Shown in pieces: positions 37,190 through 49,504 of a stretch of DNA of 64,000 bases (within the stretch, counting starts at the first letter, position 1; each line of letters starts with the position of its first letter). The notes under the pieces were generated by a model. That model ran no database searches and had not been told where the DNA came from. It worked only from the letters and a program-made list of their open reading frames with translations. A program made the translations under genes and the position numbers. Source of the stretch: Rhodoblastus acidophilus (GTDB taxonomy: Bacteria > Pseudomonadota > Alphaproteobacteria > Rhizobiales > Beijerinckiaceae); assembly GCF_900187365.1 (NCBI RefSeq), contig NZ_FYDG01000004.1, forward strand, positions 186,001-250,000. The letters are read 5' to 3'.

Positions 37190-37633
37190 TATTAACGACT
37201 AACAATTTCAGCGGGAAGGAACAGGATCCGCGCGAACTACTCTCAAAACGCAAACATTTCAAAAAGCAGCGAAGACAGAATAACCAGTCGAATGTATAAT
37301 GTACGACCATCGCGATCCTGATTTACACTATTGTACCAAGCGGTACCGCCATGACGCTGACGCTGCGTCACTTATCTCAAGCGGAGCCGCTGAAGGGCGC
37401 AGCGACTGAATCCAATGAGCTAGACTAAAGCGCGCCAACGACAAAGATCCACCAGCGCGAGCCCCACATGAACGAGTGAATCGCCTGCGCAGGAAATTTT
37501 AGCCTCATTGCCCCAGGAAAACATACCTAATTGTGAACTTTTTCGCTTCAGCTCGGCTTGAAACGCGCTATCATTTTTTGCGCCTCAGCCGCGCCAAGGC
37601 TTGATTCAAAAGACATAATTGCGAGGTAAAACA
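37190..37633. other. Gene-free gap with small hairpins upstream of the TrlF gene
   Basis: No gene is seen in these 444 bases. Three short symmetric units sit together: GCGGTACCGC (37340-37349), TGACGC/GCGTCA (37352-37370) and AGCGG/CCGCT (37380-37391). They may be remnants of a regulatory or structured RNA. Confidence 0.4.
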
Positions 37634-40600
37634 ATGTATTCCAGGGGATCGGAGTGGCGCGAATGGGATTTGCACATTCATACACCCGCATCATTCCACT
37701 GGAATGGTGAGCATTTTGGAGCCGACGCTGCCCGGAACGCTCAGTTGGTCGACGAGATGATTGGCGCGCTGAACGATGCGCGGCCAATTGCATTTTCGAT
37801 AATGGATTATTGGAACTTCGAAGGATGGTTCGCCCTACAAAGGCGTCGGCGGGAGCAAGGTTCTCCAGAGCTAACAAAGACCGTCTTTCCTGGAATAGAG
37901 CTACGACTCGCCGCGCCTATTGAAGGGCGCCTCAATGCGCACGTTCTCTTCTCAGACAAGATTAGCGACCAGCATCTAAAGGATTTCCTATCGCGTTTAA
38001 AGTTAGAGCTGACCAACCAGCCACTTTCCCGTGACGCGCTTATAGGATATGCGCGGCAAGTCGGAGACGATATATTAGCTACACATGGTTTTGACAAAAG
38101 CACAATCATCGGAAACGAGGCCGAAGCATACAAAGCTGGGTGCACCATTGCCGAGATAAACGTTGATTCCTACAAGGAGGCAATCCGCCTCGTGCCCGAC
38201 TCGCAGGCAGTCGGTTTCATGCCCTTCTCGACCAATGACGGGCTTCAATCCGTCAAGTGGTCAAGGCACTACGCATACGTACTCGGGCTATTCCAATGTT
38301 CGCCAATCTTCGAAACCCGAAAGCCTGAGCAATGGGCGGCCTTCGCGGGCATAGAGACGCAAGAGAACAAAGCCTGGTTCGCCAATTTTCAGGCCGCCCT
38401 CAAGGGAATTCCACGACTGGCGGTTTCGGGTAGCGACGCGCACTGTTTCCGAGGAAATGGCACCAATGACAAACGCGGCTATGGCGATTTTCCGTCGGGG
38501 AAGCGCACATGGATCAAGGCCGACCCAACCTGGAAGGGCTTGCTGCAAGCGCTCAAGGAACCTGCGAAGCGTTCATACATCGGGGAGCAGCCGCCAAAGC
38601 TGGACCGCATCAAGCAGAACAAAACTTTTTATATCGACTGCGTAAGCGTTCGGAAAGCTGACAACAGCACGATTCAAGATGCATGGCTTGATGGAGTAAA
38701 AATCCCACTTAATCCAGACTTGGTTGCAATCATTGGAAACAAGGGAAGCGGAAAGAGCGCCCTCGCAGATATCATCGCATTGCTCGGAAACTCACAGCAG
38801 AGCATTCACTTCTCCTTTTTGAAGAAGGATCGTTTCCGCGGGAAGGCCGGAGAGCCAGCCAGACAGTTCATAGGTGAGCTATCATGGCTCGCCGGTGATC
38901 CCAGCACCATGCCTCTAGCAGATGACCCATCGGTAGACCGGGTCGAACTTGTGCGATACATCCCGCAAGGTCGTTTCGAGGCCCTGTGCAACGATCATGT
39001 GTCAGGAAAAACCGACCGGTTTGAAAAGGAACTCCGAGGCGTCATCTTTTCACACGTACCTGCCAGCATCCGCTTGGACGCACTTGATTTCGATCAACTC
39101 ATTGAAAAGCAAGAGAGTGTCTTCCGAGCTCGGATCAACGAGCTTCGAAAGTCGTTGCGGGCCCTCAACCAGCAGATCGTGGAAACAGAAGACCAACTTC
39201 ACCCAAAGGTCAAAAAGAACATCGAAGAACTGATCAGACTAAAGATAGGCGAATACGAAGGGCAAAAGGCGTTAGAGCCTACTGCGGTTAATCCACCTGC
39301 GGAAGAGCTAAGCCCAGAACAAGCCGTGGCTAGTTCACGACTTGCAGAAATATCCGCACGACTGGAAGAGCTTGAGGTTGGATACAAGGCCACCAATCCG
39401 GCGCACCAGCTGATTAAAAAGAAACAAAGGTCTATCAGGAGCATCAATGATAGGCTTGCGTTGGTCGAAAGACAATTTAAAGAATTTACAAATGAGATCG
39501 CCAACGACCTGAGCATTATTGGCGTTAACACGAGCGATTTAATCACGCTTTCAATAAACCGAACGCTACTTAATAGCCATCAAGAAGCGCTCAGTTTGGA
39601 AGACGAAACTATATCTAAAACCGTTAAGGATATTGGCGAAGAGCAATTCAAGTTGATCGAGGAGCGAAAGTGTCTCGCGGAAAAGTTGAACGAACCACAG
39701 AAGCAATATCAAGTTTATGTACAGGCAGTGAAAGAATGGAAAGCTGCCTTGGAGGCAATAGACGGTTCAGAAACTGAGCCGGATAGCCTTAGAGGTCTGC
39801 GGAGGCGCCTGACTCAGATAGACAAACTGGGAGACTTCCTTACAGACAAAAAGGCAGAAAGGCTGGAGATTACACGACAACTTTTCGGCGTTCTCGACGA
39901 ACAGCGCAAAGCGCGCGAAGAGCTATTCGCGCCATTGCAGGAGTTGATTCAAACCAACTCCCTCATCCGCGATCATTATAAGCTCCAATTCCAATCTAAG
40001 CTTCTAGGCTCGCCAGAAACGGTCGCCTCACAGCTATTCAGTGGAATTAAACAACTTAGAGGTGAAATCCGCGGCGAAGATGAAAGCTTTGCAGCCGTGA
40101 GAACACGGTTTGAGAAATACCAGTTCGACTCTGCCGACGACTGCGTCGCTTTCGCATCTGAAATAGCCACACTCCTTGAGGAAAGCGCTGACGGGCAGAA
40201 CCATATTCCCGGAATACGCACCATCATGCGCAAGGACAAAGAGCCGGCAGACGTATATAGCTACATCTTTGGCCTACAATATCTAGAACCAAAATACACA
40301 TTGCTCTTCCAGGATACGCAAATTGAGCAGCTGTCACCTGGGCAGCGCGGTGCTTTGCTTCTGATTTTCTACCTGCTGGTCGACAAAGGACGCAATCCCA
40401 TTGTGCTGGATCAGCCAGAAGAAAACCTCGACAACGAGACCGTCGTAAGCCTGCTGGTTCCGGTTCTGAACGAGGCAAAGAAAACACGCCAAATCATCAT
40501 GGTGACCCACAATCCGAACCTCGCAGTCGTGTGCGACGCCGAACAAATCATCCATGCAACATTCGATCGGAAAAATGGCGCACGAATCTCATACCATTCC

Positions 40601-40696
40601 GGCTCAATCGAAAATCAGACAATAAACAAAGCTGTCGTTGATGTGCTTGAAGGAACCAAAATCGCCTTCGACAACAGAGGGCAGAAATATCACTGA
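37634..40696 (+). CDS. TrlF-type PHP-SMC ATPase
   Basis: This 1020-residue protein joins an N-terminal PHP phosphoesterase (WDLHIHTPAS, H14 and H16; a later SGSDAHCF) to an SMC/Rad50-like ATPase. The ATPase has Walker A IGNKGSGKSA near 375, long coiled coils (about 480-800), signature LSPGQRGALLL and Walker B PIVLDQPEENLDNE near 930, then THNPNLA. TrlF-family proteins are found in defence islands and are thought to sense or cut nucleic acid; that role is inference. The start is ATG 37634 with GAGGT upstream. It is the largest right-hand cargo gene of E1. Confidence 0.85.
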   Translation: MYSRGSEWREWDLHIHTPASFHWNGEHFGADAARNAQLVDEMIGALNDARPIAFSIMDYWNFEGWFALQRRRREQGSPELTKTVFPGIELRLAAPIEGRLNAHVLFSDKISDQHLKDFLSRLKLELTNQPLSRDALIGYARQVGDDILATHGFDKSTIIGNEAEAYKAGCTIAEINVDSYKEAIRLVPDSQAVGFMPFSTNDGLQSVKWSRHYAYVLGLFQCSPIFETRKPEQWAAFAGIETQENKAWFANFQAALKGIPRLAVSGSDAHCFRGNGTNDKRGYGDFPSGKRTWIKADPTWKGLLQALKEPAKRSYIGEQPPKLDRIKQNKTFYIDCVSVRKADNSTIQDAWLDGVKIPLNPDLVAIIGNKGSGKSALADIIALLGNSQQSIHFSFLKKDRFRGKAGEPARQFIGELSWLAGDPSTMPLADDPSVDRVELVRYIPQGRFEALCNDHVSGKTDRFEKELRGVIFSHVPASIRLDALDFDQLIEKQESVFRARINELRKSLRALNQQIVETEDQLHPKVKKNIEELIRLKIGEYEGQKALEPTAVNPPAEELSPEQAVASSRLAEISARLEELEVGYKATNPAHQLIKKKQRSIRSINDRLALVERQFKEFTNEIANDLSIIGVNTSDLITLSINRTLLNSHQEALSLEDETISKTVKDIGEEQFKLIEERKCLAEKLNEPQKQYQVYVQAVKEWKAALEAIDGSETEPDSLRGLRRRLTQIDKLGDFLTDKKAERLEITRQLFGVLDEQRKAREELFAPLQELIQTNSLIRDHYKLQFQSKLLGSPETVASQLFSGIKQLRGEIRGEDESFAAVRTRFEKYQFDSADDCVAFASEIATLLEESADGQNHIPGIRTIMRKDKEPADVYSYIFGLQYLEPKYTLLFQDTQIEQLSPGQRGALLLIFYLLVDKGRNPIVLDQPEENLDNETVVSLLVPVLNEAKKTRQIIMVTHNPNLAVVCDAEQIIHATFDRKNGARISYHSGSIENQTINKAVVDVLEGTKIAFDNRGQKYH

Positions 40697-41110: not shown

Positions 41111-41115
41111 CCAAT
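41111..41115. repeat. E1 target-site duplication, right copy (CCAAT)
   Basis: Identical to 18827-18831 and directly next to the E1 ACA end. Its last two bases also form the start of the E2 duplication ATGTC. Confidence 0.95.
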
Positions 41116-41118
41116 GTC
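41114..41118. repeat. E2 target-site duplication, left copy (ATGTC)
   Basis: ATGTC directly precedes the TGT end of E2 and recurs directly after its ACA end at 49500-49504. Confidence 0.93.
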
Positions 41119-41192
41119 TGTGGGCAGAACGATAATTCCTCCGCAATGGAAGCATATTCCCACGCAGACGGAATGAATATTCTGCTCACACA
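41119..41192. repeat. E2 left end with three 22-bp repeats
   Basis: Sites begin at 41127 (GAACGATAATTCC), 41149 (GAAGCATATTCC) and 41171 (GAATGAATATTC), exactly 22 bp apart. The first two also share CGCA after the ATTCC core. This is a typical transposase-binding array. Confidence 0.85.
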
Positions 41193-41210
41193 GTAAAAAC
41201 AATGAATTAG

Positions 41211-41410
41211 GCGACATGCGAGCGAGGTGTTCCCCGCTCGCAGCAGCGGGCGGCTGGCAATGCCAGTCGCCCAAGTCGCAGAAGGAACAAAGTAAGATCG
41301 ATTTGGCCGTCGCTCATGCAGCGATGGCAAAAGAAAACCGAGGCCGACAGAGTCGACCTCGGTTACCGCGGGAAGGCCAAAGGCCGCGCGGGGCGAAGAG
41401 GCGAACCTCT
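41211..41410 (+). ncRNA. Candidate structured RNA upstream of the YTGPGGGx-repeat gene
   Basis: A three-way junction is visible: GCGAC (41211)/GTCGC (41275) encloses TGCGAGCG/CGCTCGCA (41217-41242) and GGGCGGCTGGCA/TGCCAGTCGCCC (41248-41272). Further stems follow: TTTGGCCGTCGCT/AGCGATGGCAAA (41302-41331), AACCGAGG/CCTCGGTT (41336-41364), CCGCG..GGCC/GGCC..CGCGG (41366-41391) and AGAGG/CCTCT (41397-41410). So many strong stems in 200 nt suggest a folded RNA or leader. The second stem and the AGGAACAAAG that follows recur behind the gene. The strand is assumed from the gene. Confidence 0.5.
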
Positions 41411-41492
41411 CCTGTATCGGCAAAATCAGGTTAGCGGGATTCGTGCCTCCGAGTCGATGAGCCTTTGGCATCATCACAGGAGAAATTTCAAA

Positions 41493-41906
41493 ATGGCATG
41501 GCCACGCAACCTTTACACTGGACCGGGCGGTGGAGCCTACACCGGCCCGGGAGGAGGTCTGTACACTGGACCGGGTGGTGGAGCTTACACTGGACCGGGA
41601 GGCGGCATGTATACTGGTCCCGGCGGAGGAATGTACGCGGGGCCGGGTGGAGGAATTTACTCCGGCCCCGGCGGCGGCCTTTATACGGGTCCGGGCGGCG
41701 GTCTCTACACAGGTCCCGGCGGTGGCCTTTATACAGGACCGGGAGGAGGGCTTTATACTGGTCCCGGCGGCGGTATGTACAATGGACCGGGTGACTATAA
41801 AGCGAAGACCCCGCCATGGTATGTGTTGGTCGCCGTACTTCGCCAGAAAGGCATGCACAAATACGCCGACCTCATCGAGAAATATCTCAAAGGGCGGAAG
41901 GCATAA
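41493..41906 (+). CDS. YTGPGGGx octapeptide-repeat protein
   Basis: This 137-residue protein has MAWPRNL, then eleven tandem copies of YTGPGGGx (x is mostly L, A or M; two copies read YAGPGGG and YSGPGGG) and a partial YNGPG. A 37-residue, probably helical tail follows (KTPPWYVLVAVLRQKGMHKY...). Codons vary freely between copies, so the peptide pattern, not the DNA repeat, is being kept. AGGAG lies 9 nt before the ATG. Gly/Pro/Tyr repeats suggest a flexible or fibrous array with a binding tail. I know no function. It is the main cargo of E2 and lies between two similar folded RNA-like elements. Confidence 0.7.
   Translation: MAWPRNLYTGPGGGAYTGPGGGLYTGPGGGAYTGPGGGMYTGPGGGMYAGPGGGIYSGPGGGLYTGPGGGLYTGPGGGLYTGPGGGLYTGPGGGMYNGPGDYKAKTPPWYVLVAVLRQKGMHKYADLIEKYLKGRKA
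41514..41792 (+). repeat. 24-bp tandem repeats encoding YTGPGGGx
   Basis: Eleven full 24-bp units and one partial. Synonymous positions differ widely between units (TAC/TAT, GGC/GGA/GGT/GGG, CCG/CCC), so this is not a fresh slippage array. Confidence 0.9.
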
Positions 41907-41921
41907 GGCCGAAGTAAAGGA

Positions 41922-41990
41922 AAGCGGAAATCGCTTCCGCTTGCGGCAAACCGGGTGGCTGGCAATGTCAGCCGCCCGAGTGAGCAGGAA
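41922..41990 (+). ncRNA. Second copy of the folded element, behind the repeat gene
   Basis: A perfect 8-bp hairpin AAGCGGAA/TTCCGCTT (41922-41942) precedes GGGTGGCTGGCA/TGTCAGCCGCCC (41953-41977) and CAGGAACAAAG. The last two parts copy the element at 41248-41292, with changes in the stem. The rest of the gap up to tnsA (41991-42782) holds a terminator-like hairpin and a palindrome but no convincing gene. Confidence 0.45.
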
Positions 41991-42328
41991 CAAAGAGGTG
42001 TTGAAGCGATCGCAACTTTTAGCGAAGATTTGGCGGCTGAGTTGGAGCTTCAACAAGGCGTCTGAGAGGTCTAACCCACGGGAATAGCGCCAGAAAACTC
42101 CACGTCAACACGGCCTGGATTTAGTTCTTGCCAAAGTTCATGCTGTGTTCTAAACTGAACAAATGCGAAACATGCAGCTCATAGGCGTCGAGCCGGAATC
42201 TGAGGCGACTTCGATCGCCCAGGCGGCTCCGTGCGCCCTTCCCGGAGTCTGCAAGACGACCTGATGTCGGGAGGGCGCCAGCGCGGTCCCCTCCCATGCA
42301 AAATCTCGCCAGCGATGTCGTGTTGGAA

Positions 42329-42358
42329 CCTGCCGGATGCTCCGTTCGGCGGGTTTTT
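42329..42358 (+). terminator. Terminator-like hairpin in E2
   Basis: CCTGCCG (42329-42335) and CGGCGGG (42347-42353) form a stem followed by TTTTT. It may end a transcript from the repeat gene or a small RNA in 41910-42330. Further on, GGGACGTCCC (42591-42600) is a 10-bp palindrome about 180 nt before tnsA and a possible operator. Confidence 0.55.
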
Positions 42359-42782
42359 CGTGTCGTTTCAGCAACGCGGTCTTGGCAATTCAAGCGATTT
42401 TGGCGGCAGCTGAAAATTTTTTCGATTCCTCGCCAGACCAATAGAATCCGGACGCCGCGGTCACAGTCATGGTCAAGCTGGAGTTCCGATCGACTCGCAT
42501 CTCGCCGCTGGCTGTTGCAACGTGAGCTTGTCAACAGCGAATCACCCCAGCCGCAACAGAGGCCGCCTTGAACTAGACCAGAAATGAAAAGGGACGTCCC
42601 GAACTTCGACCTTCGGAGCGTCCCCAATCTCTTCAAACCGCCCGCCGAATCCTACCAAGACAAAACGGGCGACTCTCTGCATCCCGGCTTCCGCCGAGTG
42701 GGATGATCTTGCTTGCGTCGACCCGAAAACGCAAGAACAAAGATCCTCCTCCTTGCGGCGCCGGTCAAACGGACCGACGCGA

Positions 42783-43511
42783 ATGTCTCCTTTACCAAGC
42801 AGCGCCGACTTGGACGCCGACAACGGCGCCTTCCGGTCGCCCGCGCCGTCGAGCGCCTCGCGCCTGCCGCCGAAGCCGTCGGAGAACCAGCGATTTTCCG
42901 GGCGGGTCCGCTTTGTCGCCGGTCTCGATCCGCACGTCGTTCACTGCGAGTCCATCCTCGAATGGAAGGCGGCGCTCGTCTTGCTCGCCATGCCCGACGC
43001 CTTGGATATATTCGAGCAGCCGCCGGCGGTCGAATACGTCGACCAGCATGGCGAGATCCATCACCACACTTTCGATTTCATGCTGCATCTGCGCGACGGA
43101 ACCCGGCTCGCCATCATGGTCAAGCCGGCGGAAATCGCCGCTCGGAAAGGAATTTACGATCTCGTCAAGCTGATCGCGCTTCAGGTTTCGATGGATTTCG
43201 CCGACGGCGTGCTGCTGATCACCGACGAGGACTGCGACCGGGATACGGTCCACGACGCCGTCCTGATCGACGACATGCGCCGCCACGACGACCCGGAGGC
43301 GGATGCCGCCGTTCGCGGCATCGTTGCGGACCTCGTCGGGGAGCCGACGATCCAATGCCTGGTTGACGCCACTGGCCTCGGCCCGCGCGCGTTCGGCGCC
43401 GTCGTGCGTCTGATCGGCGACGGCGTGCTTCAGGTGATGAACTCGCGGCGCATCCGCCACGGCGCCCGTGTGCGTCGGACCGGCGCCCCGTTCAGGGATT
43501 CGCCGCCATGA
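42783..43511 (+). CDS. tnsA: TnsA-like endonuclease of E2
   Basis: This 242-residue protein is homologous to the E1 TnsA. All expected catalytic positions are there: CESILEWK (E56 or E60), HTFDFMLH (D98) and MVKPA (K114). It should therefore cut the 5' ends and allow cut-and-paste movement. The start is ATG 42783; the frame is open ten codons further upstream. The stop overlaps tniA (ATGA). Confidence 0.87.
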   Translation: MSPLPSSADLDADNGAFRSPAPSSASRLPPKPSENQRFSGRVRFVAGLDPHVVHCESILEWKAALVLLAMPDALDIFEQPPAVEYVDQHGEIHHHTFDFMLHLRDGTRLAIMVKPAEIAARKGIYDLVKLIALQVSMDFADGVLLITDEDCDRDTVHDAVLIDDMRRHDDPEADAAVRGIVADLVGEPTIQCLVDATGLGPRAFGAVVRLIGDGVLQVMNSRRIRHGARVRRTGAPFRDSPP

Positions 43512-45688
43512 ACGTGCATTCCCCCGGCGGCTCCGCGCCCGTTCGCATCTGGAAATTCGACAAGGACGACCTGATCGGCATCGGCAGGCATGACTTTTCC
43601 CTCGTCGAGTCGACGCCGGAAGGGCACGTTCTCGCGCGCCTCGACAACCCGTCGATCACGCAGAATGTCTCCCACGCCGACATCGAGCGCTGGCGCGGAA
43701 CCACCGGATTCCGCCACGTCCCCAACCACTTCTCGGCGGAGAAGCAGAAGGCGCTCGCCAAGGGCGACATCTCCTATCTTTCCGACCTGCCCGCCAAGGT
43801 GCAGTCCACGATCCTGTGGAAGTGGGAGTTCTGTCGGCGCTTCCTCGAAATGGAGCAATTGAAGGCGGCAAGCCGCTCGGACGACGGTCTTGGCCGGGCC
43901 ATCGACGCCATCCATGCGGTCGTGTCGAAGATGGACATCGGCAGGAAGATTGTGCCTGAGAAGAAGAACAGGCTGGGCATCGTCATGGCCGAGGCGACTG
44001 TCGTCGAGCGCAAGAAGCCTTGCGCCGCGACCGTGCGCGACTGGCTGATCAGGCTCGAAGGCTACGGCTTCGACCTGCGGGTTTTGCGCGACGGTCGCTA
44101 CAGGAGCGGCAACAGGAACGGTCTCGACCCCGACGTCAAGGCGTTGCTCGACAACGCCATCAATGGCGTCTGCGGCGCGACCGACGAGCGCCGCGTTCCG
44201 GTCGCGAGAATCGTCGAAAATCTCGCCGTCGCGCTTAGGAAGGAGAACGCGAACAGGGCGTCTGACGACCAGCTGTCGCGCCCCTGCGACAAGACGATCT
44301 CGAACCACGCCAGAAAACTCCCACAGTTCCTGCGCTATGCGGGGCGGCACGGCATCGACGCCGCGAGGAAGCGCTATCCCGCGAACTCGTCGGGCATCGA
44401 CGTCACGCGCCCGCTCCAGCGCGTCGAGATCGACGAGTGGCGCGTGCCCCTGCACGTTCTCCTGACGTGGACCGGCGCATGGAACGACCTGACCGACAAG
44501 AAAAAGAAGAAGTTGAAGCGGGTTCGCGTGTGGGTCTGCGTCGCCATTGACGTGGCGACCCGTTGCATTCTCGGCATGCGTCTCAGCGAGACCGTGGCTT
44601 CCACCAACTCCATGGCGGTGCTGGAGATGATGGTCGGCGACAAGACCGACATGGCGCTCGCCGTCGGCGCGAAGACGCCGTGGGACATGTTCGGGCGCCC
44701 GCACCAGATCGCCAGCGACTGGGGCGGATCGCTGGTCTCGCGGCGCGTCGTGGCTGCGATCATGGACCTTCAGGTCGCCTCGTTGCAGCCGCCGCGTGGC
44801 TGTCCGAGCCTGCGCGCACACATCGAGCGCGTCTTCAGGACTGTCGGAACGCAGCTGATTTCCCGCTTCACCGGGCAGACCTTCGCCAACGTTGTCGCCA
44901 AGGCCGGATACGACAGCGAGAAGCGCGCCAGCCTGACCGTTGCGGAACTTTGCCGCTGCCTCGTTCTGTACGTGGTCGACGTCTATCACAACCTGCCGCA
45001 CGACGGGTTGGGCGGCGAGACGCCGCGCGAGGCTTGGCTGCGCCTGACCAAGAATTTTCCTATCGCGCCACCGCCCGACATGGACGCCGCACGCGCGATC
45101 TTCGGCGAGCATCTCGCCAAGCCGCTCGGCCCGAATGGCGTCGAGTTCGCCGGCATCCCCTACCAGTCGCCGGAATTGCAGCAGCTCTTCCGCGACAAGG
45201 GCAAGATCGACGTGGAGATGCGCGTCCACCTGAAGGACTTGCGCCGCGCCAGCGTGCTGATCGACGGCGCGTGGCGCCCGGCGCCATGCATAATCTTCGA
45301 CGAGGACAGGCTGAAGCAGTCTCTGTCGCTCGGCCAATGGAAGGCCGTCGCCGGCAAGCTGAACCGGGAATATCCCGGCGGCAGGGGCTTGGACAACGAC
45401 ATCGTCCTCAACGCCATCAAGGAGATCCAGCGCGTCAGCGAGGACGCTGTCAGGCTCCGGGGAATCGGCTCCACCATCCCCAGCGAGAAGGCCATCGCTC
45501 GCGCCGAAAGGGACATCATGCTCGGCTTCACCATGCCGCCCGCCGACGCCGACTGGCCTGATCGCGAGCCCGTCGCACCGAAGGATTTCAGGTCGCGCGT
45601 CGTGCCGACCGGAAGCGGCGGTGCGCCTTCGCCTGCCGCGCCGAGTACCGGCGCCTCCAGCCGCACCATCAGGACCGAGAAGGACTAG
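43508..45688 (+). CDS. tniA: TniA/TnsB transposase of E2
   Basis: This 726-residue DDE transposase has the core residues D309 (EIDEWR), D404 (ASDWGG) and E440 (AHIERVF), all intact. N-terminal DNA-binding and C-terminal beta-barrel regions match the E1 protein in order, but the sequences are far apart. It should bind the 22-bp GAANNATATTCC-type repeats at the E2 ends. It overlaps tnsA by 4 nt and is followed 2 nt later by tniB. Confidence 0.95.
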   Translation: MNVHSPGGSAPVRIWKFDKDDLIGIGRHDFSLVESTPEGHVLARLDNPSITQNVSHADIERWRGTTGFRHVPNHFSAEKQKALAKGDISYLSDLPAKVQSTILWKWEFCRRFLEMEQLKAASRSDDGLGRAIDAIHAVVSKMDIGRKIVPEKKNRLGIVMAEATVVERKKPCAATVRDWLIRLEGYGFDLRVLRDGRYRSGNRNGLDPDVKALLDNAINGVCGATDERRVPVARIVENLAVALRKENANRASDDQLSRPCDKTISNHARKLPQFLRYAGRHGIDAARKRYPANSSGIDVTRPLQRVEIDEWRVPLHVLLTWTGAWNDLTDKKKKKLKRVRVWVCVAIDVATRCILGMRLSETVASTNSMAVLEMMVGDKTDMALAVGAKTPWDMFGRPHQIASDWGGSLVSRRVVAAIMDLQVASLQPPRGCPSLRAHIERVFRTVGTQLISRFTGQTFANVVAKAGYDSEKRASLTVAELCRCLVLYVVDVYHNLPHDGLGGETPREAWLRLTKNFPIAPPPDMDAARAIFGEHLAKPLGPNGVEFAGIPYQSPELQQLFRDKGKIDVEMRVHLKDLRRASVLIDGAWRPAPCIIFDEDRLKQSLSLGQWKAVAGKLNREYPGGRGLDNDIVLNAIKEIQRVSEDAVRLRGIGSTIPSEKAIARAERDIMLGFTMPPADADWPDREPVAPKDFRSRVVPTGSGGAPSPAAPSTGASSRTIRTEKD

Positions 45689-45690
45689 CC

Positions 45691-46785
45691 ATGCCCGACG
45701 ACCAGAACACCCAAGGCAAGCCGGACACGCTGGCCCTTCTTAGCCTCTCGCAGTCCGAGGACGACATGAGGCGGTTGGGCGTGCTCGCCGACGTCTATTC
45801 CCTCTACTTCGCCTTCGGCCATCGTGACGACCCCTTGAGGGCCGAACTGGACCGCATGATCGGGCGCCTTCTGATGCGAATCTCCGGTCTTCTGCCGCCA
45901 GAGGCCGCCGACAGGTTGGACACGAGATGCCTGGTTCTGACGGGCGCTTCCGGCGCGGGCAAGAGCGCGGCTCTGGGGCGCATGTTCCTCAAGCACCCGT
46001 CGTTCCCCGGATTCGGCGTCGCCGGTTCGGGATGCCCAGCCGTCAGGGTGCGGGTCCGGGGCGGCTGCACCCACGGCAGCCTCGCGCGCGCCCTGCTCCG
46101 CGCCCTCGACTATCCGATCATCGTCGCGAGGAAGGACGCCGAGACCCTGTGGGAGATGGCGCGCGAGCGCGTCCGAATGATGGACGTTCGGGTGATCTAT
46201 TTCGACGAGTTCCAGAACGTGATCGAAACCGCCAACGTCGACGAGGTCCAGAAGATGCTGAATAGCCTCAAGACCTTCCTGAACCACGAAACCCACCCGG
46301 TCCTGCTGGTCCTCTCCGGCCTGCCCTCAATCGTTCCGTTTCTAGAAATCGACACGCAGGTCTTCCGGCGCAGCGTGTTCATCCGGTTCCAGCCGCTCGA
46401 TGCTGACGACCTTCCGTTGCTGTCCAAGATCGTCGGCGATCTCGCCAAGGCGGCCAATTTGCGCGTGGACATCCCGAAGATGGCCGGATTTCTGCCGCGC
46501 CTGATGCATGCCTCTCTGTTCCAACTCGGCACCTCCGTCGAACTCGCCTGCGAGGCGGCGGAACAGGCGTTGATGGTTGGAGGCGATACGCTGGAAGTCG
46601 GCCATTTCGCCGCCGGCTTCGCGCGCCGCACCGGAAACGCCGACGAGGCCAACCCCTTCCTCGCCAAGGACTACCACCTGATCGACTGCTCCCGCGTCCA
46701 CCGGAAGGCGGTCATCGCCCCGGACGATGACGACGAGATGGACAAGCGCCGCCGGATGCGCCGGAAGATGCGAGCGACGAAGTGA
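45691..46785 (+). CDS. tniB: TniB/TnsC transposition ATPase of E2
   Basis: This 364-residue AAA+ protein has Walker A GASGAGKS (85-92) and Walker B VIYFDEFQ (D172, E173). It starts 2 nt after the tniA stop and overlaps tniQ by 4 nt (GTGA), so the four genes are one tightly coupled operon. The C-terminus is strongly basic (KRRRMRRKMR). Confidence 0.93.
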   Translation: MPDDQNTQGKPDTLALLSLSQSEDDMRRLGVLADVYSLYFAFGHRDDPLRAELDRMIGRLLMRISGLLPPEAADRLDTRCLVLTGASGAGKSAALGRMFLKHPSFPGFGVAGSGCPAVRVRVRGGCTHGSLARALLRALDYPIIVARKDAETLWEMARERVRMMDVRVIYFDEFQNVIETANVDEVQKMLNSLKTFLNHETHPVLLVLSGLPSIVPFLEIDTQVFRRSVFIRFQPLDADDLPLLSKIVGDLAKAANLRVDIPKMAGFLPRLMHASLFQLGTSVELACEAAEQALMVGGDTLEVGHFAAGFARRTGNADEANPFLAKDYHLIDCSRVHRKAVIAPDDDDEMDKRRRMRRKMRATK

Positions 46786-48620
46786 CCGTCGGCAAGCTCC
46801 ATCCGCGCGTGCCCCTCGGGCGCGACGAGTCGGCGACATCGTTCCTGTCGCGGCTGGCGCGGTGCAACGGCGTAGACTCCGCTCGCAGGCTCTGTCTCGA
46901 CGTGGGGCTGGATTTTCAGGGCGTGGTCGACGGGCGCGGCGACGCCCTGTCGGCGCTGGCTTGGATGGCGGACGCGGCGCAGGAAAACGTCGTCGCCGGC
47001 GCCATCGTGCGCGAGGGAGACGCCATTTTTCGGCTGCGGGACGAAAGGCTGCTGAAGCCCGCCCTGCGCCGGGACAAGCTTCACGTTTGCCCGGCCTGCC
47101 TGAGTGACGACATCGCGGCATCAGGCCGCGCGCCGGAGGTTGCCGCCTATGGGCGGGTCCATTGGCTTCTGGGCGCGATCCGCACCTGCCCCGTACACGA
47201 GATGGCGCTGGTCGATGCCGTTGCCGGCGCCACTCCCAGCAAGCTGCACGACTTCGCGCTGCTGATGGCGCCGGCGGTTGCGGACCTCGACGGTCTGGCC
47301 GAACACGCGGCGCGTCGTGCGCCGTCCTCCCTCGAAACCTATCTCCTCGACCGGCTGGCAGGCGTCGTGGGCAGGTCTCCATGGCTCGACGGTCTGGAAT
47401 TCTATGCCGCCGCCAAGACTTGCGAGATGGTCGGCGCCGTCGCCGTTCATGGGCGCACGCCGAACTTGAAGCTCCTGACCGACGACGAGTGGCGCGAGGC
47501 TGGCGCCATCGGCTTCGGGATTGCGGCGGGCGGCGAGACGAGCATTCGCGAGTTCCTCGCCGACCTTCAGGCGACGTTCTCCTATGGGCGCGGCGGAAAC
47601 GATGGGCCGCAGGCCACTTTCGGGCGGCTCTTTCAGTGGATTGCCTTCGGCGCCGAGGACACCTCCTTCGACCCGGTGCGCGACGTGGTGCGGCGCCATG
47701 TCTGCGAGACGACCCCGGTCGGCCCCGGCGATGTCGTTCTCGGCCAGCCGGTCGAGCGCCGCCGCATTCATTCGATCCGTTCCGCGTCTCTGGAGATCGG
47801 CGCGCATCCGAAGCGCCTCCGCAAGCTGCTCGCCGCCAAGGCGCTGATCGCCGACGACCATCAGAGCAGGCCGGACAACCTCGTCCTGTTCGACGCCGAA
47901 GCCGCGCGCGACGCAATGGAGGCCGCCGTCGGACTGTCATTGAAGGAGGTCGAGAGCTACCTCAACGCCGGGCGCGTGCAGGCGAGACTGCTGGCCGAGC
48001 ACGGCTTCATCAGGCCTCTCGTGGCGGCGGGAGCGCCGGGAATCGGCGAAAACGCATTTTCCAGGGCGGAACTCGACGCGTTCCTGGATCGCCTGCTCGA
48101 CGGGGCCGAGCCAATGGTCGAGGCGGTCGAGCCGATGGCGGACATTCCATGGGCGGCCAAGCGGGCGTGCTGCTCGGCAGCCGAGGTCGTCCGGCTGATC
48201 CTTGATCGTCGCCTTACTCGTGTTGGCCGTCTGGAGGGTGCCGGGGGCTACATGTCGGTCCTTGTCGATGTCGAGGAGATCAGGCGCCACGTCTGCGGCC
48301 CGGCGCTGGAGGGGCTGACGGGCCGCGACCTCATGCGCGAGTTGCGGACCAACAACCGCGTCGTCAGCGCCCTGATCGCCGCCGGGAAGCTGCGGGCGAC
48401 GCGGGCCGTGAACCCGGTCAACCGCTGCCCGGTCGATGTCGTTACGTGCGAGGAACTCGACAGGTTCAGGCGCGAGTATGTCTCGCTGACGGAGATGTCC
48501 GAGGCGCTTGGGCGCCACAGGCGCGGCGTGATCGCCATGATGGAGGAGCGCGGCGTCAGGCCCGCGCTCGACAGGGAGGCGTTCGGAGCAACGTTCTATC
48601 GGCGGGCGGAGGTGGAATGA
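46782..48620 (+). CDS. tniQ: TniQ/TnsD target-selection protein of E2
   Basis: This 612-residue protein starts at a GTG that overlaps the tniB stop. The zinc ligands are C103, C106, C136 and H139 (CPAC...CPVH). It has the same length and block order as the E1 TniQ, including the YAAAKTCEMVGA-like and AAKRACCSAAEVVRLILDRR units. Both elements sit at the same site behind nrdJ, so the parts shared by the two TniQ proteins should include the nrdJ-reading surface. Confidence 0.9.
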   Translation: MTVGKLHPRVPLGRDESATSFLSRLARCNGVDSARRLCLDVGLDFQGVVDGRGDALSALAWMADAAQENVVAGAIVREGDAIFRLRDERLLKPALRRDKLHVCPACLSDDIAASGRAPEVAAYGRVHWLLGAIRTCPVHEMALVDAVAGATPSKLHDFALLMAPAVADLDGLAEHAARRAPSSLETYLLDRLAGVVGRSPWLDGLEFYAAAKTCEMVGAVAVHGRTPNLKLLTDDEWREAGAIGFGIAAGGETSIREFLADLQATFSYGRGGNDGPQATFGRLFQWIAFGAEDTSFDPVRDVVRRHVCETTPVGPGDVVLGQPVERRRIHSIRSASLEIGAHPKRLRKLLAAKALIADDHQSRPDNLVLFDAEAARDAMEAAVGLSLKEVESYLNAGRVQARLLAEHGFIRPLVAAGAPGIGENAFSRAELDAFLDRLLDGAEPMVEAVEPMADIPWAAKRACCSAAEVVRLILDRRLTRVGRLEGAGGYMSVLVDVEEIRRHVCGPALEGLTGRDLMRELRTNNRVVSALIAAGKLRATRAVNPVNRCPVDVVTCEELDRFRREYVSLTEMSEALGRHRRGVIAMMEERGVRPALDREAFGATFYRRAEVE

Positions 48621-48733
48621 TCTGCACCCCATAGGCATTGACGTACAAGCGAACCGTGGCGAATGCGGCATCGCAGCGCGATCGCCCGCACCTTTACCGT
48701 TCAAGCTTTGACAACGATGGAAAACCGCACATT

Positions 48734-49063
48734 ATGACCGTCAAGGCGATGCGTAAGGTTCGCAGAAAGAAGGTGAAAAAAATGCTCAACGGAGCTGATA
48801 TCCAGTGGGAAGAACCCCATCAAGTAAAAAACCGGACATTTCAAATTGTCGTTTACATCGATCCGTCGCTTCCGAATTCAACCTGCGTTGAGGCATTCGA
48901 GAACGGAAAAGAAGTCATCTACACCCTGGCACCGGGCCTCTCCCAGCGTGAACGCCATCTGATAGATCACACCACAGGGTCTTCTTATTTCAAGAAATTC
49001 GGCACAGCTGGTCTGTTCGACTTGATCGAAGACATAAAATCGCGGCTCGATAAATACGCATAA
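48734..49063 (+). CDS. Small hypothetical protein of E2
   Basis: This 109-residue basic protein starts at ATG 48734 (MTVKAMRKVRRKKVKK). The frame is open back to a TTG at 48638, which would add 32 plausible residues, so the true start is unsure. The middle (FQIVVYIDPSLPNSTCVEAF) looks like a beta-rich fold, and the end is helical. I do not recognise it. It follows tniQ in the same direction. Confidence 0.5.
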   Translation: MTVKAMRKVRRKKVKKMLNGADIQWEEPHQVKNRTFQIVVYIDPSLPNSTCVEAFENGKEVIYTLAPGLSQRERHLIDHTTGSSYFKKFGTAGLFDLIEDIKSRLDKYA

Positions 49064-49135
49064 TCTCAACATAAAAGAGCGTTAAGGCGCATTTGTCGGA
49101 CGACACCCGCCAAAATATCTTATGCGTGCGCCGTT

Positions 49136-49294
49136 TCAGTAGCCCGACTGCGGGTTAAGCGGCGCCGCCTCGGCCACCAATGCGCTGACGCGGTTCTGTG
49201 CAGGCGGGCCATTTCCTATGATCTTGCTGGCGTAAAGTGCGGCACCGAGCACAAGGGCGCCAACAATGGCGATCTGAGTCATACGCATAGTCAT
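49136..49294 (-). CDS. Small single-helix membrane protein of E2
   Basis: This 52-residue protein has one hydrophobic helix (MTQIAIVGALVLGAALYAS) and a short tail. It starts at ATG 49292-49294 with GAGG upstream. It faces the end of the previous gene. The function is unknown. Confidence 0.4.
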   Translation of the reverse strand: MTMRMTQIAIVGALVLGAALYASKIIGNGPPAQNRVSALVAEAAPLNPQSGY

Positions 49295-49402
49295 CTGAGA
49301 CCTCTTCACGGCGCATAAACCACATCGGGCCGCAATGGTTGCGGCGCCGGTTGACGAGCGTTTGAGTTCAGGCTGCGCGCCGGACCTCCAATTCGCCATG
49401 GT

Positions 49403-49499
49403 CTTCGCAGAGAAATATTCGTTCTGTTTGCGAATGGATTAGCGGTCGGAAGAGGTCGAAAATTGACAGTTTTGCGTAGGTTTTTTCGTTCTGGCTACA
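49403..49499. repeat. E2 right end with transposase-binding repeats
   Basis: In inverted orientation to the left end. The outer site 49469-49491 reads GAACGAAAAAACCTACGCA on the minus strand, and the inner site 49403-49426 reads GAACGAATATTTCTCTGCG. They lie about 67 bp (three turns of 22) apart. The end is CTACA. Confidence 0.85.
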
Positions 49500-49504
49500 A
49501 TGTC
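49500..49504. repeat. E2 target-site duplication, right copy (ATGTC)
   Basis: Identical to 41114-41118 and directly next to the ACA end of E2. Its ATG is also the first codon of the ImmA/IrrE-like pseudogene. Confidence 0.93.

Follow-up and report, generated by a model that had tools for sequence, protein, structure and literature searches.

The left-hand cargo slot of a compact Tn7-like transposon (E2) in Rhodoblastus acidophilus holds a gene built largely of octapeptide repeats, with folded, RNA-like elements before it and again behind it. The preliminary description of this locus considered a protein-RNA unit plausible, whether as a structured leader, as a selfish RNA, or as an RNA-binding protein array. 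The question is whether the gene and the RNA belong together or are separable. The window analyzed here is a 64,000-nt stretch of contig NZ_FYDG01000004.1 (positions 186,001 to 250,000), and its features are collected in Table 1. We consider that two independent modules have probably been joined, a mobile cargo gene of the defense kind and a leader exerting translational control in cis.

Table 1. Features of the repeat-gene locus and of the transposon that carries it (window positions).
Feature	Position	Strand	Remark
Tn7-like element E2, 8381 bp	41119..49499	.	target duplication ATGTC at 41114-41118 and 49500-49504
Structured leader RNA, 5' three-way junction to start codon	41205..41492	+	fold z, homologs L066/L079, covariation
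Leader hairpin H1	41216..41242	+	
Leader hairpin H2, upstream copy	41247..41276	+	
AGGAACAAAG motif, upstream copy	41283..41292	+	
Leader helix 1	41336..41364	+	compensatory changes in 6/10 pairs; minus strand also terminator-like
Leader helix 2	41366..41391	+	
Leader helix 3, AGAGG-cgaa-CCTCT	41397..41410	+	stem invariant in three genera
Leader helix 4	41438..41455	+	holds CCTCC predicted to pair with Shine-Dalgarno
Shine-Dalgarno of repeat gene, CAGGAG	41477..41482	+	predicted sequestered
Octapeptide-repeat gene	41493..41906	+	137 aa: WPRN head, 12 octapeptides, C-terminal PPW helical hairpin
Downstream hairpin H1'	41921..41942	+	sequence differs from H1, place corresponds
Hairpin H2, downstream copy	41952..41981	+	
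AGGAACAAAG motif, downstream copy	41986..41995	+	
TnsA-like endonuclease of E2	42753..43511	+	sub-threshold Pfam/NCBIfam match
TnsB/TniA-type DDE transposase of E2	43508..45688	+	
TnsC/TniB ATPase of E2	45691..46785	+	
TniQ of E2	46782..48620	+	

The assignment of E2 as a transposon is borne out by terminal repeats that match at 18 of 24 positions and by a 5 bp target duplication. The repeat gene lies inside these terminal repeats as left-hand cargo, as is characteristic of Tn7-like elements. To the right of TniQ, a 141-aa ORF (48638-49063) is without significant match, and no reverse transcriptase was found among the E2 proteins scanned, so the element does not qualify as a retron or DRT carrier. 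A second, larger Tn7-like element (18832-41110; duplication CCAAT, own terminal repeats) ends 8 bp before E2. Its right-hand cargo is a TrlF family AAA-like ATPase (37619-40696; NF045780, 3e-194), which is weakly similar to anti-phage Ppl.

From N- to C-terminus, the repeat protein consists of MAWPRNL, the octapeptides, and a C-terminal stretch, AKTPPWYVLVAVLRQKGMHKYADLIEKYLKGRKA. The array itself is as first described, with a corrected count: in place of eleven YTGPGGGx units there are 12, comprising 11 of the form YxGPGGGx (9 of them exactly YTGPGGGx) and a final YNGPGDYK. Freely varying codons had been taken as a sign of selection on the peptide, and the codon differences agree, with 274 synonymous vs 104 nonsynonymous among the 12 units. 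Between the window gene and its closest relative (L004) the counts are 59 synonymous and 7 nonsynonymous, which supports purifying selection at the peptide level, as judged from these codon comparisons. AlphaFold2 predicts the C-terminal helical hairpin with confidence (about 91 to 96) but gave no fold for the octapeptide tract with two alignments (pLDDT about 30). Matches of the protein to solved structures look like low-complexity matches and were discarded.

Relatives of the repeat protein were recovered at 26 loci in a search of 84,980 species genomes; further ones came from the host's own taxonomic family, from plasmids, and from four viral contigs, and of 5426 complete E. coli genomes, 18 carry a copy. 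Members are ~57-83% identical to the window copy over a range that takes in Alphaproteobacteria, Bacilli, Myxococcota, and gammaproteobacterial phages, and the taxa represented include Alpha- and Gammaproteobacteria, Desulfobacterales, a Helicobacteraceae MAG, Bacilli, Clostridiales, Actinobacteria, Myxococcota, and Rariglobus. The family shares a head with W-x-R-N/D ahead of the octapeptides, a tract of usually 12 units, one of the early ones holding a fixed alanine and the last being conserved, and the C-terminus (S)NIPPWxVFVxxLxxxGxxxxADLIxxxL. Serine replaces tyrosine in some members, and the unit number is lower in a few copies from Bacilli. The mostly stable number of 12 units and the residues kept at particular positions from phylum to phylum lend further support to selection at the peptide level.

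GPGGX-repeat silks and other low-complexity Gly/Pro/Tyr proteins contain Gly-Pro-Gly-Gly motifs with spaced tyrosines. The family described here likewise combines such motifs with spaced tyrosines and has no confidently predicted fold in this tract. However, the bacterial proteins differ in their mostly fixed 12 units and their conserved helical PPW head, and the likeness is without demonstrated homology. The repeat proteins of L005 (and L002) and L007 have signal-peptide-like N-termini and cysteines (YNGPGGG, YDGPGGx), apparently forming an exported branch.

The repeat gene is a horizontally mobile single-gene cargo of many unrelated elements. The Vibrio campbellii copy (L059) is a superintegron cassette flanked by two VCR-type attC sites, and an attC-like sequence precedes the gene in Methylobacter and Rhodanobacter. 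In a P2-like phage (L045) it lies between the portal (phrog_68, 1e-168) and the replication nickase (phrog_91), a slot that corresponds to the P2 phage defense hotspot described in PMC9122126, and in E. coli P2-like prophages, Silvania, and viral contig L044 it directly follows the integrase (int-att slot). One of the E. coli prophage copies is the gene at 10001-10399 of L056 (NZ_AP027550.1). Other copies are borne on plasmids of Enterococcus, Bacillus, Clavibacter, and Acinetobacter. The 2365 bp cryptic plasmid pJY33 of Weissella cibaria (L062) has just two genes, one for replication and the repeat gene, and is a minimal natural test construct.

Neighbors across the family loci include a complete Gabija pair (GajA/GajB, 4e-253/2e-242), type III and type I restriction enzymes (REase_III, 1e-196; REase_I, 6e-170), Orf5/GmrSD (2e-192), a dCTPase (1e-113), Tmn (2e-68), and ImmA-Fic. 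Judged from these listed neighbors, the set is typical of defense cargo and may point to a defense function. In addition, a reverse transcriptase, a DUF4062 protein, and an HTH gene occur near the repeat gene on Acinetobacter junii pAJ_068-3 (L057), and DUF4062 adjoins it in L025 too. Cargo of P2-like hotspots (Rousset et al. 2022, PMC9122126) is alike in its portal-gpA position and defense neighbors (family member L045), and cargo of Tn7-like transposons (Benler et al. 2021, PMC8649781) is alike in its cargo slot and in having defense genes as neighbors. The repeat family, known here from sequence, differs from both in that it matches no model in Pfam, NCBIfam, or PHROGs, and 0 of 20 members match the curated defense models of PADLOC. 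No mention of the octapeptide motif was found in the literature searched.

Upstream of the gene, at least six stems including a three-way junction had been noted, and the 288 nt before the start codon indeed fold at -128.3 kcal/mol, compared to -100 +/- 4.7 for shuffled sequences (z -6.03, 0/200), into at least six stems with the three-way junction at the 5' end. The GGAG of the ribosome-binding site is predicted to pair with a conserved CCTCC segment, which can alternatively form part of helix 4. The predicted pairing probability of the Shine-Dalgarno is 0.93-0.97 in the window. Other readings of the leader were considered and set aside: no reading frame is common to the leader and its two homologs introduced below, a tRNA-like reading of GGATTCGAACC was dropped for want of a full T-arm and of any ARAGORN or Rfam match, and inspection by eye found no CGTT at 16-17 nt from GGAAC, as an EcfG-type promoter would have.

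BLAST within the host's taxonomic family returned a single homolog of the leader (L066, 77% identity), in a genome of another genus (G211), where it precedes a 53-aa zinc-ribbon ORF followed by a TIR_2-domain gene. The two remain homologous past the Shine-Dalgarno (CAGGAGAAA and CTGGAGAAA) up to the ATG, and the genes beyond are unrelated. Pairing of GGAG with CCTCC is predicted here too, with a probability of about 0.8. A covariance search with a model made from these two leaders found a third (L079; 36 bits, E 9e-7) in a further genus (G729). This is the weak member of the three: a zinc-ribbon ORF lies behind it with no TIR gene detected after that, Shine-Dalgarno sequestration is not evident, and the placement of the leader directly before Shine-Dalgarno and start codon, kept in the window and L066, is less clear. 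A fourth match is weaker still (G650, E 0.009). An order-wide pattern scan found the leader at its own locus only, and scans of plasmids and viruses gave nothing convincing.

In the alignment of the three leaders, 96% of cells are paired and 8 pairs are changed on both sides, a value reached by 0 of 500 shuffles; slid structures give 0-1. The statistic is favorable to the structure, which was built on two of the sequences and then served to find the third. Together, the compensatory changes in other genera and the conservation that ends at the start codon uphold the proposal of a structured leader. It resembles Shine-Dalgarno-sequestering leaders and riboswitches in being a structured 5' leader with an anti-Shine-Dalgarno segment and homology that stops at the start codon. 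However, it differs from the known ones in that Rfam yields no match at the gathering threshold (permissive thresholds gave chance-level matches only), the genes behind it are unrelated, and it has three members.

The G211 arrangement relates the leader to TIR defense proteins (Thoeris and relatives), with which the window shares only the leader. In zinc-ribbon-TIR pairs elsewhere (L082, L083, and L091), (A)GGAACAAA or a closely similar sequence lies upstream. In L082 and L083, AGGAACAAA (or AAAGAACAAA) is found ~90 bases ahead of the zinc-ribbon start, with a short ORF (MNQ.../MMNQ...) after it, and L082 also has a hairpin. This arrangement is a possible translation attenuator of zinc-ribbon-TIR operons, in which AGGAACAAA could be the ribosome site of a leader ORF, an explanation that does not hold in the window. 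On plasmids of Methylorubrum, Paracoccus, Sulfitobacter, Phaeobacter, and Sinorhizobium (L091-L096), a small zinc-ribbon ORF, often unannotated, overlaps, adjoins, or lies near TIR-domain genes in most cases.

The recurrence of a stem and its following AGGAACAAAG behind the gene, also part of the preliminary description, was confirmed and extends to a two-hairpin unit with a variable H1, a conserved H2, and the motif, found at 41216-41292 and again at 41921-41995. The two H2 copies (30 nt) are 87% identical, the AGGAACAAAG copies are identical, and 0.01 such H2 matches are expected by chance in the window; elsewhere in the 4.7-Mb genome, H2 matches only its own palindrome and one site with three mismatches. 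The downstream copy also folds more stably than shuffled sequences (z -4.26). It is a duplicate of the 5' part of the leader with no recognizable gene behind it: no remnants of a zinc-ribbon or TIR gene were found behind the downstream hairpin, and no such gene is detectable in the window. IS200/IS605-like ends were rejected as an interpretation, as AGGAACAAAG follows both hairpins in one direction.

A hairpin and motif on both sides of the gene would fit a dedicated pair in which the repeat protein binds the hairpins on either side, comparable to RNA-antitoxin or RNA-scaffold systems. This is very improbable, as both leader and motif are absent from every other repeat-gene locus tested and neither of the other two leaders is accompanied by a repeat gene. 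The genome search revealed a widespread family and a leader missing from its other tested loci, which speaks against a protein array that binds this RNA, and the idea of a selfish RNA fares no better, since the two other occurrences precede zinc-ribbon genes. Repeat genes that always lack the flanking structures had been named in advance as the observation that would count against the proposal; what was found has this effect on the protein-RNA unit but leaves the leader standing. The same direct repeats, together with the integron cassettes among family members, could instead mark recombination sites of a cassette that brought the gene into E2, rather than regulatory RNA, and the downstream copy could be the scar of a cassette exchange. 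We regard this as unlikely: by reading, there is no attC core pair (GTTRRRY/RYYYAAC) at 41211-41292 or 41905-41995, so the window copy does not have the makings of an integron cassette, the upstream copy is part of a leader conserved up to the start codon in another genus, and AGGAACAAA precedes zinc-ribbon-TIR operons too. A small antisense RNA on the minus strand, regulating the repeat gene in trans or cis, deserves about as little credence. On that strand, helix 1 is followed by TTTTCTTTT in a terminator-like arrangement, with a similar T-rich run in L066, but the T-run is weak in L079, the wobble pairs (8 G-U vs 3 A-C) favor the plus strand, and the homology ends at the Shine-Dalgarno and start codon.

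Concerning the protein, the more serious alternative is that it has a structural, surface, or stress role and benefits mobile elements in some way other than defense. Its silk- or elastin-like composition and the versions with signal-peptide-like N-termini, which fit poorly with a cytoplasmic defense effector, make this a reasonable possibility, though not the one we would expect. Most members have no signal peptide, and members are found in known defense hotspots and beside defense systems.

On comparative grounds, the leader is thus most likely an element that controls translation in cis and has been captured by different cargo genes, and not the RNA partner of the repeat protein: its homology ends at the start codon, and in both the window and G211 the Shine-Dalgarno is predicted to be sequestered. 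A gene swap at the start codon may have placed the repeat gene under a leader that elsewhere serves a zinc-ribbon gene. In the off state, the conserved CCTCC would pair with the Shine-Dalgarno and hold translation low; a trigger would refold the leader so that the CCTCC segment forms helix 4 and the Shine-Dalgarno is freed. The repeat gene itself would be an accessory gene of the phage-defense kind, a role suggested by its cargo niche. Its Gly/Pro/Tyr low-complexity tract may self-assemble as a flexible, multivalent chain, with the PPW hairpin as a dimerization or target-binding head, such that the protein, once made, could act against an invading element, perhaps by assembly. The boldest form of this model, in which the 12-octapeptide protein represents a new class of mobile anti-phage effector acting by assembly of a low-complexity chain and an undescribed alphaproteobacterial family of leader RNAs switches on the translation of such cargo, be it the repeat protein or zinc-ribbon-TIR, upon infection, is doubtful.

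A broad mobile family of repeat proteins, often found beside phage-defense systems, is missing from the standard protein-family libraries. As it is a single gene with natural copies in E. coli prophages, a test of its function in laboratory E. coli would be simple. As a candidate new RNA family, the leader would exemplify one regulatory RNA serving different cargo genes of the defense type.
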